Shown piece by piece: positions 15,999 to 24,315 of a stretch of 64,000 bases of DNA. Under the pieces are notes generated by a model. The model was not told the DNA's origin. It worked only from the letters and a program-made list of their open reading frames with translations, and searched no databases. Where the stretch lies: contig CALAXT010000019.1 of NCBI GenBank assembly GCA_937895435.1, forward strand, positions 1 through 64,000, in the 5' to 3' direction. Made by a program: the position numbers and the translations under genes. Position 1 is the first letter of the stretch. Every line of letters begins with the position of its first letter. The DNA comes from an uncultured Paracoccaceae bacterium (lineage in GTDB: Bacteria > Pseudomonadota > Alphaproteobacteria > Rhodobacterales > Rhodobacteraceae).

Positions 15999-16132
15999 GC
16001 GTCGCTCCTATGAAAAATTTGGGGTCTATGTGATCGGTTCGTGCGGGCGCGTCAACCAAAGCCGCGCTTTGGTCTTTTGCTTGGCGGCGGATCGCATTAG
16101 GGTTGCGCGCGTTAATATCAAAGGAGAGCCCG

Positions 16133-16639
16133 ATGGCCGATATCAAAGATCCCGAAAATACCATCATCATGACGTTGAAAGATGGCCCCGTGGTGATCGA
16201 GTTGCTGGCAGATGTCGCGCCGCAGCACACCGCCCGCATGAAAGAACTGGCCCGGGCCGGTGCTTACGACAATGTGGTGTTTCACCGGGTGATCGATGGG
16301 TTCATGGCCCAAACTGGTGATGTTGAAAACGGCAACGCGGAGAAAGATTTTAACCTGCGCCGCGCAGGTACGGGTGGGTCTGATTTGCCAGATATCCCAG
16401 CCGAGTTTTCAAAACTGCCCCATGACCGTGGCACGCTGGGGGCGGCGCGTTCGTCAAACCCCAATTCAGCCAACAGCCAGTTTTTCATCAACTTTGCCGA
16501 TAACCATTTTCTGAATGGTCAATACACCGTCTATGGCCGGGTTGTTTCGGGCATGGCGCATGTGGATGCAATTGTGCGTGGTGAACCTGCGGCCAACCCT
16601 GATCGTATGATCAGCGTCAAGGTGGCCGCTGATGTCTGA
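16133..16639 (+). CDS. ppiB: Cytoplasmic cyclophilin-type peptidyl-prolyl isomerase
   Basis: Catalyses cis-trans isomerisation of prolyl bonds during protein folding. The 168-residue single-domain cyclophilin has DNVVFHRVIDGFMAQTGD near residue 44 (catalytic Arg in FHRV), NSQFFINFADNHFLNGQYTVYGRV near 112, and no signal peptide. AAGGAG precedes the chosen ATG at 16133, and the longer open frame upstream lacks a site. Its last eight bases overlap the start of a second, secreted cyclophilin gene, so the two are translationally coupled. Confidence 0.94.
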   Translation: MADIKDPENTIIMTLKDGPVVIELLADVAPQHTARMKELARAGAYDNVVFHRVIDGFMAQTGDVENGNAEKDFNLRRAGTGGSDLPDIPAEFSKLPHDRGTLGAARSSNPNSANSQFFINFADNHFLNGQYTVYGRVVSGMAHVDAIVRGEPAANPDRMISVKVAADV

Positions 16640-17222
16640 TCGGCGTGCGGCATTGCGGCTGGCTGTGGCAGGGGTGGGGCTTTGGTTGGCCGCAGCTTTG
16701 CCTTTGGCCGCCCAAGATGGCCCTGGCCCAAATTTGGTGATTGAATTGGCCGGTCAGGCCAATGGGCGTATCGTGATCGATTTGCGCGATGATGTGGCCC
16801 CCAAACATGTGGCGCAAATCACCACACTGGCGCGGGCAGGGGCCTATGACGGTGTGGTGTTTCACCGTGTGATTGAGGGCTTTATGGCGCAAACGGGCGA
16901 TGTGATGTACGGAAAGCGCGGCGCTGATCTGAGCCGCGCAGGCATGGGCGGATCAGATTTTCCTGATCTTCCGGCCGAATTTTCCAGCCTGCCGTTTGAT
17001 GCAGGCGTGGTGGGTATGGCGCGGTCGCGCAGCCCAGATTCGGCCAACAGCCAGTTCTTCATCACCTTTGCGCCTGCGCCACATCTTGATGGCCAGTACA
17101 CAGTGGTTGGTTCGGTGATTGAGGGGATGGAGGTGCTGAACGCAATTAAGCGCGGAAACAGCGCCGCAAACGGATTGGTCAGCTCCCCAGATTACATGGC
17201 CAAAGTCACTGTCGAAGAATAA
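16632..17222 (+). CDS. ppiA: Secreted (periplasmic) cyclophilin-type peptidyl-prolyl isomerase
   Basis: A 196-residue cyclophilin related to its upstream neighbour, but with an N-terminal signal peptide (RR, then a hydrophobic run of about residues 8-24, cut after AAA or AQ). It is expected to fold proteins in the periplasm. The catalytic FHRVIEGFMAQTGD and NSQFFITFAPAPHLDGQYTV blocks are intact. It starts inside the end of ppiB with an eight-base overlap. A strong bidirectional terminator follows. Confidence 0.92.
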   Translation: MSDRRAALRLAVAGVGLWLAAALPLAAQDGPGPNLVIELAGQANGRIVIDLRDDVAPKHVAQITTLARAGAYDGVVFHRVIEGFMAQTGDVMYGKRGADLSRAGMGGSDFPDLPAEFSSLPFDAGVVGMARSRSPDSANSQFFITFAPAPHLDGQYTVVGSVIEGMEVLNAIKRGNSAANGLVSSPDYMAKVTVEE

Positions 17223-19735: not shown

Positions 19736-21781
19736 TCAGCCCCGCCGCCGCCGTCGGTTGCCACCATCGCCACCGCCATTGCTGTTAAAAGACGGCTGTG
19801 GCAGCGTGACAATCGCGCCCAATTCCGGGAACGGATCGGTGGCATGTGGGATGGCATTTGCGGCGATAAAATGTTCTTGAAATCGCGGCTCGATCGCAGT
19901 TTCCACCTTGTGGATTTGATGCACGGTCGCCTCAATTTCAGCCCGGCTGGCGATGTTGCACAGTGCAATCCGCGCGCCAGTGCCTGCCGCATTGCCCGCC
20001 GATGTCACATGATCAAGCGGTGCATCCGGGATCATCCCCAAAACCATCGCATGTTTAGGTGAGATATGCGCGCCAAAGGCGCCAGCCAACACCACACGGT
20101 CAACATGGTCGACATGCATCTGGTCCATCAACAGCCGTGCCCCAGCATAAAGCGCTGATTTTGCCAACTGGATGGCGCGTATATCGCCTTGTGTCACGCG
20201 GATCACCGGCCCCCCCTCTGTGCTGCCATCATGCACCAGATAGGCATGGGTGCGCCCCTCGGGCTGGCAGCGTGGGGTGCCAGTTTGCTCAGCGCTGCCA
20301 ATCAGGCCGGACGCATCCACCAGACCCGCCATGCGCATCTCTGCGACGGCTTCGATAATGCCTGAGCCGCAGATACCCGTTACCCCAGTGCTAGCGATCG
20401 CATCGGCAAAACCGGGGGCATCTGACCACAGATCACAGCCAATCACCCGGAAGCGCGGCTCTTTGGTGATTGGATCAATTTCCAACCGCTCAATCGCGCC
20501 CGGTGCGGCGCGTTGGCCCGAACTGATCTGTGCGCCTTCAAATGCTGGGCCGGTAGGTGATGAACAGGCCAAGACCCGGCTTTCATTTCCCAACAAAATT
20601 TCAGCATTGGTGCCAACATCGACGATCAACACCAGATCTTTCGATTTGCCCGGTTGTTCGGCCAGCGCCACTGCTGCGCAATCTGCACCAACGTGGCCTG
20701 CGATGCAGGGCAAAATATAAGCCCGTGCATTGGGGTTGACCACCGTGATGTCCAGCGCGGCCACATCAAGCGACATCGCGCTGGATGTGGCCAGCGCAAA
20801 GGGTGCCTGACCGAGTTCGACCGGGTCAATCCCCAGCAACAGATGATGCATGATGGGGTTGCAAACAAACACAGCCTCAAGGATCAAGATGGGCGATACC
20901 TCAGCCTCAGCTGCGATTGCACCGGCCAGATCATTCAGTGCGTGGCGCACCGCACTTGTCATTTCAACATCCCCACCGGGGTTCATCATGACATAGCTGA
21001 CCCGGCTCATCAAATCTTCGCCAAACCGAATTTGAGGGTTCATCAACCCCGATGAGGCCAGCACACTTCCATCGCGCAAATCACATAAATGCGCCGCAAT
21101 CGTGGTTGATCCCAGATCAATTGCCAGCCCGTAAATCCCGCCCTCATAAAAGCCCGGCCAGATTTCCAGCACGCGATGGATCTGGTCATGGTGGCCCTTG
21201 TGCAAGGCAACCGTGACCGTCCATTTGCCTTTACGTAATACGGGTTGCAGTTTGCGTAAAATATTAAGATCAGCCGATATATCATTGATATCCCACTGCT
21301 TTTTCAAAGCACTGGCCAGCCGTTCCAGATCACCAGAGGGTTCGTGCATGTCGGGTTCCTCTACCTCGACATAGTAGAGCTTGGTGGCGGGGTCCATGGT
21401 GATGGCGCGTGTGGTTGCGGCCTTGCGGATCACCTGTTTGTGCAATTGGCTTTCGGGGGGGACATCCACAACCACGTCACCCATCACCTTGGCCTGACAG
21501 CCCAAACGGCGGCCATCTATTAGACCACGTTTGGATTTATAGCGTTCTTCAACCGAATTCCACGGGCTGAGCGCATCAGAAGCAACGGTAACACCATGCT
21601 TTGGAAAGGCGCCAATCCCGGGTGTGATTTGGCATTTTGAACAGATACCGCGCCCACCACAAACGGAATCAAGATCAACGCCCAACTGCCGTGCGGCAGT
21701 CAGAATGGGTGTGCCAATCGCAAAGCGCCCCCGCTTGCCCGATGGCGTGAAAATAACAAGCGCATCTGCGATCTGAGACAT
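19736..21781 (-). CDS. Ferredoxin-ASKHA protein, putative reductive activator of a corrinoid enzyme
   Basis: Likely reduces inactive Co(II) cobalamin in a corrinoid methyl-transfer protein back to Co(I), using ATP. The 681 residues begin with a plant-type [2Fe-2S] ferredoxin domain (Cys41, Cys47, Cys50, Cys95). A linker region follows, and then a DUF4445/ASKHA ATPase domain from about 215 (YGLAIDLGSTTIAAHL, IVDVGTNAEILLGN, GICGSGIIEAVAEM, LAGAFGAHISP). This is the RACE/RamA architecture. AAAGGA lies eight bases upstream. It is the last gene of the methyl-transfer operon. The final 17 residues are Gly/Asn/Arg-rich and end in five Arg, which is unusual for the family core. The substrate enzyme is unknown. 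Confidence 0.88.
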   Translation of the reverse strand: MSQIADALVIFTPSGKRGRFAIGTPILTAARQLGVDLDSVCGGRGICSKCQITPGIGAFPKHGVTVASDALSPWNSVEERYKSKRGLIDGRRLGCQAKVMGDVVVDVPPESQLHKQVIRKAATTRAITMDPATKLYYVEVEEPDMHEPSGDLERLASALKKQWDINDISADLNILRKLQPVLRKGKWTVTVALHKGHHDQIHRVLEIWPGFYEGGIYGLAIDLGSTTIAAHLCDLRDGSVLASSGLMNPQIRFGEDLMSRVSYVMMNPGGDVEMTSAVRHALNDLAGAIAAEAEVSPILILEAVFVCNPIMHHLLLGIDPVELGQAPFALATSSAMSLDVAALDITVVNPNARAYILPCIAGHVGADCAAVALAEQPGKSKDLVLIVDVGTNAEILLGNESRVLACSSPTGPAFEGAQISSGQRAAPGAIERLEIDPITKEPRFRVIGCDLWSDAPGFADAIASTGVTGICGSGIIEAVAEMRMAGLVDASGLIGSAEQTGTPRCQPEGRTHAYLVHDGSTEGGPVIRVTQGDIRAIQLAKSALYAGARLLMDQMHVDHVDRVVLAGAFGAHISPKHAMVLGMIPDAPLDHVTSAGNAAGTGARIALCNIASRAEIEATVHQIHKVETAIEPRFQEHFIAANAIPHATDPFPELGAIVTLPQPSFNSNGGGDGGNRRRRRG

Positions 21782-21883: not shown

Positions 21884-22855
21884 TTAGCCGCGCGCGCGGC
21901 CGGCCCGCCCACCAGACCGCCCACCCCGCCCACCGGCGGCGGCAGCTTCTGAACTGGCTTCGGCAAAGGATTTACCGGCCGCCACTGCTTCCAATACGCG
22001 CGAAAACCGGATCCATTCACCACCATTTGCGTCATGGTTCATCAAGAAATTTGCGGCACGAATGGCCTCCATTTCAACCTGACGTACGGGGTTCATGATT
22101 GCGCTTGTCATCCCGGCGCCAATGGCCATCGGTAAAAACGCCGCGTTGATACCATGGCGATGCGGCATCCCAAAGGAGATGTTTGAGGCACCGCACGTGG
22201 TGTTCACGCCCAGCTCTTCACGCAGGCGGCGCACCAATGTGAACACCTGTTGACCGGCTGAGGCCAGCGCCCCCACCGGCATCACCAGCGGATCAACCAC
22301 AATATCATGCGCCGGAATGCCAAAATCGGCGGCGCGTTCCACGATTTTCTTCGCAACCGCAAAGCGCACCTCTGGGTCCATCGAAATGCCGGTGTCATCG
22401 TTTGAAATAGCCACAACGGGCACATTATATTTTTTAACCAGCGGCAGAACCATTTCCAAACGGTCTTCTTCGCCTGTGACCGAGTTGAGCAGGGGGCGAC
22501 CTTGGCAGGCGGCCAGTCCGGCCTCAAGCGCGCCGGGAACCGAGCTGTCGATGCACAGCGGCACATCGACCAACCCCTGCACCAGTTCAATCATCTGGCG
22601 CATCAGCGGCGGTTCGGTTTCATTTGGGTTTGGGTTTGAGTTGTAGACCACGCCTGCGTTGATATCGAGTACCATAGCGCCACAGGCGACCTGTTCCAGG
22701 GCATCGCGGGCGACGGTCGAAAAGTCACCGGCCTCAAGCTCGGCTGCCAATTTCTTGCGCCCGGTGGGGTTGATCCGTTCGCCGATCACGCAGAACGGCT
22801 CATCAAAGCCGATGACGACGGTTTTGGTTTTGGATTCGATCACTGTGCGTGTCAT
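21884..22855 (-). CDS. Methyltetrahydrofolate:corrinoid methyltransferase (pterin-binding family)
   Basis: Should move a methyl group between a corrinoid protein and tetrahydrofolate. The 323-residue pterin-binding TIM barrel shows VIGERINPTGRKKLA near residue 23, the folate-binding VLDINAGVVYNSNPN near 62, CIDSSVPGALEAGLA, LLNSVTGEED, and GASNISFGMPHRHGIN near 243. The C-terminus adds an Ala/Gly/Arg-rich tail (GGRGGRSGGRAGRARG) beyond the barrel. It begins nine bases after the reductase stop. The corrinoid partner is not encoded in this window. The function is inferred from fold and operon company. Confidence 0.87.
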   Translation of the reverse strand: MTRTVIESKTKTVVIGFDEPFCVIGERINPTGRKKLAAELEAGDFSTVARDALEQVACGAMVLDINAGVVYNSNPNPNETEPPLMRQMIELVQGLVDVPLCIDSSVPGALEAGLAACQGRPLLNSVTGEEDRLEMVLPLVKKYNVPVVAISNDDTGISMDPEVRFAVAKKIVERAADFGIPAHDIVVDPLVMPVGALASAGQQVFTLVRRLREELGVNTTCGASNISFGMPHRHGINAAFLPMAIGAGMTSAIMNPVRQVEMEAIRAANFLMNHDANGGEWIRFSRVLEAVAAGKSFAEASSEAAAAGGRGGRSGGRAGRARG

Positions 22856-22864
22856 GGAACTCTC

Positions 22865-23785
22865 TTATGCTGGGGTGGCAGGCGCGGTTGCGGCGCCCCC
22901 GTTTTGAATGGCCCAAGTGGCGTTTGCGGTGATGCCGCCCAAGGGGAAGAAATGCACAGACTCAATCCCAAAGCCTGGGTTGGCGGCTTTGTGTTCGGCA
23001 AGCGCAGTCAGAAAATCGTCAGGCGTAAACGGCATAAGCAGCTTTGTCACATCCCGCGCCCGCTTTTGCAACACGCGCAGCGATGCGCCAACACCACAGG
23101 CAATCGCAAATTTCAACAAGGTCTGCAGTTTCCCCGGGCCCGCCACACCAATATGGATCGGCAGCGAAATGCCCTCGGCTGCCAAACGTTCGGCCCACGC
23201 GATGACGGGTGCTGGTTCAAAGCAGAACTGGGTCGCCATCGCCATTTTTGCGTTGGTGCGCTCTGAAAATGCTTGTTTCCAACGCAGTGCCTCCATCACC
23301 ATTTTATCTGATCCATCTGGATCGATATCGCGGTTACCTTCGGGGTGACCAGCGATATGCAGACGATCAAACCCAGAAAAAGCGCCGCTTTCCAGCAGTT
23401 GCATCGATGTTGCAAAATCACCATGTGGTGTGGCCACGCCCCCGGCCAGCAGCAGCGCCTGTTTTACGCCCGCCTCGCCCTGATAGCGTGCAATCCAATC
23501 GCCCAGTGTCGCGCGGTCTTTGATGATGCGCGCGGGGAAATGCGGCATGGGGGTAAAGCCTTCGTCGCTTAACCGCTTTGCCGTAGCCACCATATCTTCA
23601 ATCGCGGTGCCTTCGATATGGGCGATGTAAACGCGGGTGCCCGCAGGCAAGAGTGGGCGGAAATCTGCAATTTTTTCCGCTGTGCGTGGCATGACCTCAA
23701 TCGAATAGCCTTGCAAGAACGCCTCAAGCTTGGGGTTTACAGCTGCGGTTTGCGCAGAATCGCCTTTGAAATTCAGCAGCGCCAT
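22865..23785 (-). CDS. Atypical methylenetetrahydrofolate reductase (MetF family)
   Basis: A 306-residue flavin-type MTHFR homologue. In this setting it probably oxidises methyl-THF to methylene-THF, linking demethylation to one-carbon oxidation. The barrel is visible in SIEVMPRTAEKI near residue 28 (catalytic Glu region), ALLLAGGVATPHGDF, the FAD-region HIAGHPEGN, MATQFCFEP near 185, and IHIGVAGPGKLQTLL. It differs enough from housekeeping MetF to suggest a dedicated form, in the way MetF2 serves chloromethane use in other bacteria. An ideal AAAGGAGG site precedes the ATG. The direction of catalysis is inferred. Confidence 0.83.
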   Translation of the reverse strand: MALLNFKGDSAQTAAVNPKLEAFLQGYSIEVMPRTAEKIADFRPLLPAGTRVYIAHIEGTAIEDMVATAKRLSDEGFTPMPHFPARIIKDRATLGDWIARYQGEAGVKQALLLAGGVATPHGDFATSMQLLESGAFSGFDRLHIAGHPEGNRDIDPDGSDKMVMEALRWKQAFSERTNAKMAMATQFCFEPAPVIAWAERLAAEGISLPIHIGVAGPGKLQTLLKFAIACGVGASLRVLQKRARDVTKLLMPFTPDDFLTALAEHKAANPGFGIESVHFFPLGGITANATWAIQNGGAATAPATPA

Positions 23786-23834: not shown

Positions 23835-24131
23835 TCAGGCCCAGCCATCGTTTGCAATCAGGGTTTTGATACGCTCAAGGTCATATTCAGCTTCCAACCG
23901 GTCGGCCTCGGCGCGGGCGATCTCTTGTGGGTCGCCGGCCATTTCAACCGGATCTGCCTTGCGCCATTCTGCAAGATAGGCATCGGTGTCGCGCGCGCCA
24001 ATTTTCATCGCACAGCGATCAATCGCTTGTTCAAACCGCTCTGGCAGCGGCAGTTTGGCCGCAGTGCGGCCCTTACCCACGATAACTTGGGCCGGAATGT
24101 CGCGCCAATAGACGATTGTAACAAGTGCCAT
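23835..24131 (-). CDS. Small protein of the family named 'virulence factor', head of methyl-transfer operon
   Basis: A 98-residue soluble protein (TIVYWRDIPAQVIVGKGR at the start, a Lys/Leu-rich middle, a charged helical end). It matches the small family that databases label 'virulence factor', for which no biochemical role is established to my knowledge. AGGGG lies eight bases before the chosen ATG at 24131. The gene leads the operon, 49 bases before the reductase, so a role in folate/corrinoid C1 transfer is likelier than virulence. That is inferred from position only. Confidence 0.72.
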   Translation of the reverse strand: MALVTIVYWRDIPAQVIVGKGRTAAKLPLPERFEQAIDRCAMKIGARDTDAYLAEWRKADPVEMAGDPQEIARAEADRLEAEYDLERIKTLIANDGWA

Positions 24132-24315
24132 GATGATTCCCCTATTCAATCCCTGCTTCTAAAGTGCCGCCCTCGTCATACTGTGCTGAATTTCGACACT
24201 CAAAGCCACCGTTGCGACGCGTGCGGTCTGAATGATGATTTCCGCGCGATGCCAAGGCTTGCGCGCGCGCGCTTGCACCATTACCTTGGGGATAACTTGT
24301 GTTGGAGGGCGACAG

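Follow-up and report, generated by a model that had tools for sequence, protein, structure and literature searches.

The closest described relatives of the pathway studied here are the split methionine synthase and the MtgBCDE glycine betaine system of Phaeobacter inhibens and Ruegeria pomeroyi (Price 2018, PMC5764234; Mausz 2025, PMC12478193). According to the accessible parts of these papers, they are built from the same stand-alone pterin, corrinoid, homocysteine and MttB modules as found here, with a RamA-like reactivator, DUF1638 and metF2, and both methionine synthesis and betaine demethylation have been reported in vivo, while the present organism is known from its genes. The mtgBCD genes are described as widely expressed in the ocean (PMC12478193, accessible text). 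No statement on what brings the separate synthase parts together was found in the accessible split-synthase literature, and PMC12366255, in its accessible text, gives as unknown whether MtgE (Bmt) works alone or with other parts of the split synthase. Likewise, no mention of terminal tails was found for the MtgBCDE system in the accessible text of PMC5764234 and PMC12478193; the words arginine, N-termin-, disordered and tail have zero occurrences in the main text of PMC12478193, and arginine has none in PMC12366255. A search of titles and the beginnings of abstracts, which left most subscription papers and preprints outside, gave no description of the tails among the matches listed.

Two other kinds of assembly are comparable. 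In MtaB-MtaC (2I2X) and MttB-MttC (7XCN), a client methyltransferase docks on a corrinoid carrier, as is assumed here, and in the complex MtaC makes use of an extra domain at its N-terminus (PMC9842639), but no Arg-rich tag shared by several clients is reported in the accessible accounts of them. The single-chain B12 methionine synthase MetH carries out the same module chemistry around one cobalamin domain; its modules are covalently linked, whereas here they are separate proteins and each presumed client has an Arg-rich tail. Short terminal tags that gather the enzymes of one pathway are also familiar as docking peptides and cargo-loading peptides. The tails described below differ from these in that they are kept by Arg composition and not as a fixed motif; targeting to a microcompartment was rejected, as the PF00936 shell gene is absent from the genome.

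Arg-rich termini in the window operon and its genome

The window, a stretch of 64,000 nucleotides from an uncultured Paracoccaceae bacterium, has a four-gene operon on the minus strand. The ORF at 21884-22855 (323 aa, with the stop codon TAA at 21884-21886) encodes an MtgD-type methyltetrahydrofolate:corrinoid methyltransferase (PF00809, E 3.8e-26; NCBIfam NF005719, E 4.8e-123, above cut-off), the stand-alone pterin-binding module of the split methionine synthase. Its C-terminus reads ...EAAAAGGRGGRSGGRAGRARG, with positions 21887-21943 translating to AAAGGRGGRSGGRAGRARG, and the last 16 residues form the Arg/Gly-rich tail GGRGGRSGGRAGRARG (21887-21934), which consists of 8 Gly, 5 Arg, 2 Ala and 1 Ser. 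The terminal run of about 16 Gly, Arg, Ser and Ala residues pointed out in the initial annotation is thus real. Directly downstream lies the gene for a RamA/RACo-type corrinoid reactivation ATPase with an N-terminal ferredoxin-like domain (19736-21781; PF14574, E 4.4e-83, and PF17651 and PF17650, above cut-off; PF00111 slightly below cut-off and NCBIfam AcsV also below). This protein ends GGNRRRRRG, within the Arg-rich tail NGGGDGGNRRRRRG (19739-19780). The other two ORFs, a MetF2-like protein (22865-23785) and a small PF13769 ('Virulence_fact') protein (23835-24149; E 2e-31), which served as controls, the latter being also a possible accessory part, were inspected for an Arg tail and have none; the earlier remark that two operon neighbours share RG-type tails and the other two proteins lack them is confirmed from the ORFs. 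The MetF2-like protein, methylenetetrahydrofolate reductase-like, was labelled by its operon position after the accessible text of PMC12478193, since TIGR00676 is only weakly matched (E 0.0044, far below its cut-off) and a Pfam search at 1e-3 gave no match. It recurs next to MtgD and may be a very divergent methylenetetrahydrofolate reductase or something else. Elsewhere in the window, 16103-16639 and 16632-17222 are adjacent, slightly overlapping ORFs, which we take to resemble peptidyl-prolyl isomerases.

The MtgD tail of the window is not rare when taken alone. Its densest 10-residue stretch has 4 Arg, and at least this number is reached at the C-terminus by 5/87 annotated neighbouring proteins and by 101 of 958 long ORFs, which are mechanical calls and include shadow ORFs; at least 5 Arg per 10, as in the window RACo, are found in 2/87 and 31/958, respectively. 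Solved chains of RACo and AcsE type have no such tail, since they end 8-11 residues after the match to RACo and MtgD. A single-sequence structure model of the window MtgD had a pLDDT of 44.8 and was discarded.

The other parts of the split synthase and MtgBCDE system, namely the stand-alone corrinoid and homocysteine modules and the MttB demethylases, are all present in the same genome (2.66 Mb, 81 contigs) besides the pterin module and the RamA-like reactivator. There are five MttB-family genes (PF06253 matches, all above cut-off), and all five N-termini are Arg/Gly-rich: RRARGGGGAARRAER, RRSRSGGRQARQ, RKRRSGGRAGHRDR, RRGRRTGREN and RRVGRSGGRAARVAVR. The string RSGGR is common to the window MtgD tail and three of these five heads; a DNA pattern search for RSGGR over the whole genome gave 147 matches vs 233 for the reversed control and is uninformative. 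At another locus (L006), an MtgE-type betaine-homocysteine methyltransferase (206-1228; NF005718, E 2.8e-183, above cut-off), which ends PRERRRARS, adjoins the corrinoid protein MtgC. The latter is a 233-aa protein of cap plus B12 domain (PF02607, E 9.5e-17, above cut-off; the NCBIfam MtgC model and related ones match, every one below cut-off), has an acidic N-terminus and no tail, and its best 80 named matches are mostly from Rhodobacteraceae or genera of that group. A further ORF there is presumably of the DUF1638 type, a name given from its position.

The initial annotation had proposed a common assembly or localisation signal and would have given it up if other pathway proteins had no tails and orthologues did not conserve them. 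The opposite was found, as all five MttB proteins and MtgE are tailed and the tails are kept across families, so that a pathway-specific common signal is well supported, and its role may be assembly rather than some other shared one. The corrinoid proteins, which the annotation had also proposed to search for similar termini, do not bear them: 0/56 and 0/80 carriers reach 5 Arg per 10 and one of the 56 reaches 4. Since the carrier itself is untailed, it is a candidate receptor for the tails.

Conservation of the tails and the preference for arginine

Tails were measured as the maximum Arg count in any 10 residues past the conserved core, and MttB heads as at least 5 Arg in 20 residues within 45 residues before the core; loci L008-L037, which are shorter copies of 30 of L098-L137, were excluded from all counts. 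In the set to which the window operon belongs (circuit A), 120 of 122 RACo proteins from 121 genomes reach 4 Arg and 117 reach 5. These comprise 77 from the window's family (76 of the 80 sampled genomes have RACo, to which G101 is added), 44 from 43 other genomes of the class and one from another class, a partial match in G256 being left out; among the 76 sampled family genomes, 75 reach 4 and 73 reach 5. The two proteins below 4 are those of G163 (L177) and G022 (L388), and in L162 and L180 the Arg cluster lies further inside a longer end. MtgD was counted where it lies whole within the stretch beside RACo, which is the case in 25 genomes of the family, 40 further ones of the class and one from another class. 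It reaches 4 Arg in 66/66 genomes and 5 in 64/66, the window MtgD being at 4. This conservation, of MtgD in 66/66 genomes and RACo in 120/122 proteins at the threshold of 4, is beyond chance.

Moreover, MtgE is tailed in 13/13 cases of one set, and among 65 distinct proteins from 80 loci of named genomes and metagenome bins, for which a complete MtgE in the stretch was required, all 65 reach 4 Arg and 63 reach 5. The MtgE tail is already inside an existing family profile, because NF005718 spans the protein up to residue 340 of 341; its one-line description is silent on the tail. In the MtgE genes of L237-L315, a linker of the form GGFSSASDGTGDD precedes the Arg cluster, and its conservation exceeds that of the tails on the other clients. 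For MttB, 116 of 118 distinct proteins have an Arg-rich head by script, and 115/118 once L195 is removed. MttB start codons are uncertain, so that untranslated sequence may be present in the 45 scanned residues, and for this reason the L195 MttB, which belongs to an untailed circuit, counts as positive by script. Both remaining misses are MttBs from the archaeon Halomicrococcus. The set of 118 is not a random draw but includes paralogues picked by hand among the matches listed; with these, the matches in G165, G241, G163 and G277 are covered completely and those in G291, G289, G243 and G254 in part. Even divergent MttB paralogues with 38-66% identity to the MttBs of the window's genome have an Arg-rich head in 38/38 cases by eye, and these head sequences differ. 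A single MttB head is weak evidence, as at least 5 Arg per 20 are also reached by the N-termini of 7/87 annotated neighbours and 174 of 887 ORFs (again mechanical calls with shadow ORFs); its uniform retention is not weak. At 5 Arg per 10, none of 35 MetF2-like and none of 45 PF13769 proteins is tailed, and DUF1638 reaches this threshold in 1/48 and 0/76 cases and that of 4 in 6/48 and 12/76.

Arg-rich termini on both MtgD and RACo were also seen in Sinorhizobium meliloti pSymB, Paracoccus aminovorans, Paracoccus methylovorus (only loosely for its RACo) and the betaproteobacterium Azoarcus sp. KH32C, and MttB heads in S. meliloti, both Paracoccus species, Azoarcus, Cereibacter sphaeroides, Leisingera methylohalidivorans and Aminobacter aminovorans. 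The solved chain 4yyc_A appears from its sequence to carry the S. meliloti MttB head, being identical to it over the aligned part. Among the homologues seen, tails are absent in Halomicrococcus (RACo, an MtrH-type methyltransferase and the two MttBs), Acetoanaerobium (MtgD-like protein and RACo), Vescimonas (RACo) and Gemmatirosa (RACo and a homocysteine methyltransferase).

Although the tails drift in sequence, they retain their Arg, even at 33-38% GC. Over the 25 C-terminal residues, the counted RACo, MtgD and MtgE proteins have an R:K ratio of 1065:91, vs 5876:2564 in their bodies. Where the locus has 33.5% or 36.8% GC, R:K is 11:18, 29:42, 12:16 and 27:45 in the bodies and 9:0, 6:4, 8:1 and 6:2 in the tails, and one MttB in each of these two genomes shows the same contrast, with R over K in the head and K over R in the body. 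Arg and Gly codons are GC-rich, the window has about 57% GC and its own tail falls within the background, so that one could think of harmless tails produced by GC-rich codons or by read-through of GC-rich 3' ends. Yet Arg-over-Lys tails on Lys-rich bodies at low GC speak against base composition, and operon neighbours and paralogues have no tails even inside one genome; an artefact of GC or composition is ruled out by the low-GC genomes, and a neutral origin of this kind is extremely improbable. The preference hints at a role of the guanidinium group in the tails beyond that of charge.

Arg is preferred over Lys in RG-rich condensate proteins as well. The strong Arg preference, together with the RG-rich, low-complexity character of the tails and a composition kept while the sequence drifts, would also suit tails that drive a condensate or a higher-order metabolon through contacts with each other or with a polyanion (RNA or polyphosphate), with no dedicated site on MtgC. 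But it is the presumed clients of the corrinoid protein that the tails track, and the MetF2-like neighbour in the operon is untagged (0/35). RGG or RSGGR strings occur in some MttB heads and in the tail of the window MtgD; many tails of RACo and MtgE, in contrast, are Arg runs about 10 residues long and not RGG repeats. We therefore consider a condensate rather unlikely.

A second, untailed circuit and the carrier MtgC

A second RACo-MtgD-carrier set (circuit B) was found at eight loci (L182-L187, L194 and L195) in genomes of this class, with 28-32% (RACo), 31-37% (MtgD) and 46-51% (carrier) identity to the proteins of the window's genome. It has no tails on RACo (0/8) or on the MtgD-like protein (0/8), and the MttB of L195 has no Gly/Arg-rich stretch beside its core, its start being uncertain. 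Three times this untailed circuit stands beside the tailed one, in G274, G040 and G064 (the genome of L195). In G274 both circuit A enzymes seen, RACo and MtgD, are tagged, in G040 and G064 the sole circuit A enzyme in the stretch, RACo, is tagged, and the circuit B enzymes of all three are untagged. This bears on the possibility that the tails act inside each enzyme, for example in oligomerisation, solubility or substrate binding, for which there is a parallel in the N-terminal strands of Methanosarcina barkeri MttB that aid oligomerisation according to the accessible text of PMC9842639. The circuit B paralogues manage without tails, however, and several families, tailed at the N- or the C-terminus, would each need the same chemistry, which makes such a role very improbable.

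The carriers of circuit A start with an acidic element, D..L..L.D(D/E)ELV.Q(M/I).(D/E)DLY(D/N)GL, whose part (D/E)DLY(D/N)G occurs within the first 50 residues in 58/58 circuit A rows, in which a few genes appear twice, vs 0/8 circuit B carriers. Over their first 40 residues, circuit A carriers have a net charge between -10 and -17 and those of circuit B one between -4 and -11 (L195 being at -11), so that the two ranges meet. The circuit B carriers are themselves acidic (net charge -14 to -22), and what separates the circuits is therefore the conserved element rather than charge. In the alignment, the four circuit B carriers shown begin roughly 8 to 17 residues later than those of circuit A. 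A circuit A MtgC model of moderate quality (mean pLDDT 72.5, pTM 0.60, 27 close relatives) places residues 1-13 outside helices except for a turn at 9-11, predicts the first cap helix at 14-26, and matches the cobalamin domains of MttC and MetH with a TM of about 0.6; for the four solved relatives shown, the alignment to MtgC begins at its residue 12 to 24.

Furthermore, the tail appears to have been lost where the carrier is missing. The genome G046, which is 100% complete, was searched for RACo, MttB and MtgC (the last at E 1e-40) and gave no match, and its MtgE homologue (L404, 50% identity) ends AAQPVAATRRA; the FSS.DGT linker is missing from it, as is the Arg cluster. A quick tree with 24 proteins places this homologue on a long branch among tailed family members (SH-aLRT 83 for the nearest join), so that it is probably nested among tailed proteins, with the unsure placement that so long a branch has; it may have turned into a stand-alone homocysteine methyltransferase. 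In G042 and G074, where MtgC is present and MttB is not, the MtgE tail is kept. A tree of RACo was built from 58 rows, among them 45 circuit A proteins drawn at random, all tailed, the two tail-less ones not being included; in it, a single branch divides the tailed proteins from the rest. The RACo tail thus probably arose once and was then kept, to judge from this tree, and the correlation of tail and acidic element on RACo counts as one event, to which the loss in G046 adds one more, on a long branch of unsure place.

Tails as candidate client tags

MttB, MtgD, MtgE and RACo are taken as the clients of MtgC, because by the published scheme and established corrinoid chemistry each must reach the cobalamin of the carrier, and MetF2 need not. 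That enzymes which are unrelated but meet one B12 carrier share conserved Arg-rich termini suggests a common docking tag. Such a docking code would agree with the tagging of the presumed clients, with an acidic element confined to their carrier and with loss of the tail where the carrier is absent. We assume, with a probability slightly above one half (roughly 0.55), that the tails are client tags that dock the modules of the split enzyme on MtgC. The B12-dependent methionine synthase of this lineage is split into parts that share the small carrier MtgC with several MttB demethylases and the RamA/RACo reactivator; each presumed client of MtgC bears an Arg-rich, often Gly-rich and presumably disordered terminus, and the MetF2-like and PF13769 proteins and MtgC itself go untagged. 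On MtgC, the acidic N-terminal element together with the first cap helix (DDELVxQMxDDLYDGL) would offer a weak binding site at which the tails are interchangeable. This would keep all clients within reach of the carrier, in place of the covalent linkers that join the modules of MetH, and would separate the tailed circuit from the untailed one in some of the same genomes. That an N-terminal addition to a corrinoid protein chooses the partner has a precedent in MtaC (PMC9842639, accessible text). We infer from these comparisons that the tails are disordered, contact the element and raise flux or specificity. The stronger form, in which one degenerate Arg tag at either end of four enzyme families gives interchangeable docking on one acidic B12 carrier and serves both as a non-covalent substitute for the MetH linkers and as an address code for the two corrinoid circuits of one cell, seems to us about an even bet.

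Two points weigh against docking on MtgC. Purified P. inhibens Bmt (MtgE) is active in vitro on betaine or DMSP without a carrier, as the accessible text of PMC12366255 reports, which counts against a docking tag. In addition, published work on the split synthase ties DUF1638 to reactivation, in its accessible parts; if DUF1638, which is mostly untailed, also meets the carrier, not every client is tagged, which would leave a gap in the scheme. As a control, a fused pathway pair was sought, in which the fused module should need no tail, and none was found among the ORFs examined.

Instead of MtgC, the shared partner brought in by the tails may be a different one, for example a reductant, DUF1638 or the PF13769 protein. 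DUF1638 was ruled out as the receptor, since it also accompanies untailed circuits (L195 and Halomicrococcus). The PF13769 protein could be the receptor in place of MtgC: among the loci examined it is confined to circuit A (26/44 vs 0/8), and on the plasmid of Terrarubrum flagellatum (L229, 5695-7977) one CDS of 760 aa annotated 'virulence factor' joins a PF13769-type protein to RACo, a fusion seen from annotation and outside the ORF set examined for fusions, which suggests that the PF13769 protein works with the reactivator. It is near neutral, though (two named loci give net charges of -4 and -1), and at 18/44 loci the fetched stretch did not show it; we regard a partner other than MtgC as distinctly unlikely. 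As a separate observation, four proteins annotated with an MTHFR C-terminal domain (L226 8848-9435, L227 6535-7008, L228 6286-6867 and L234 4241-4831) have net charges of +13 to +18 in mostly acidic company and are possibly further clients of the carrier.

If the shared tag on MttB, MtgD, MtgE and RACo for docking on MtgC is true, it would answer how a split machine that makes methionine and uses betaine holds together. It would also give a direct genetic test, predict which MttB paralogues feed this carrier and provide a sequence signature for new clients.
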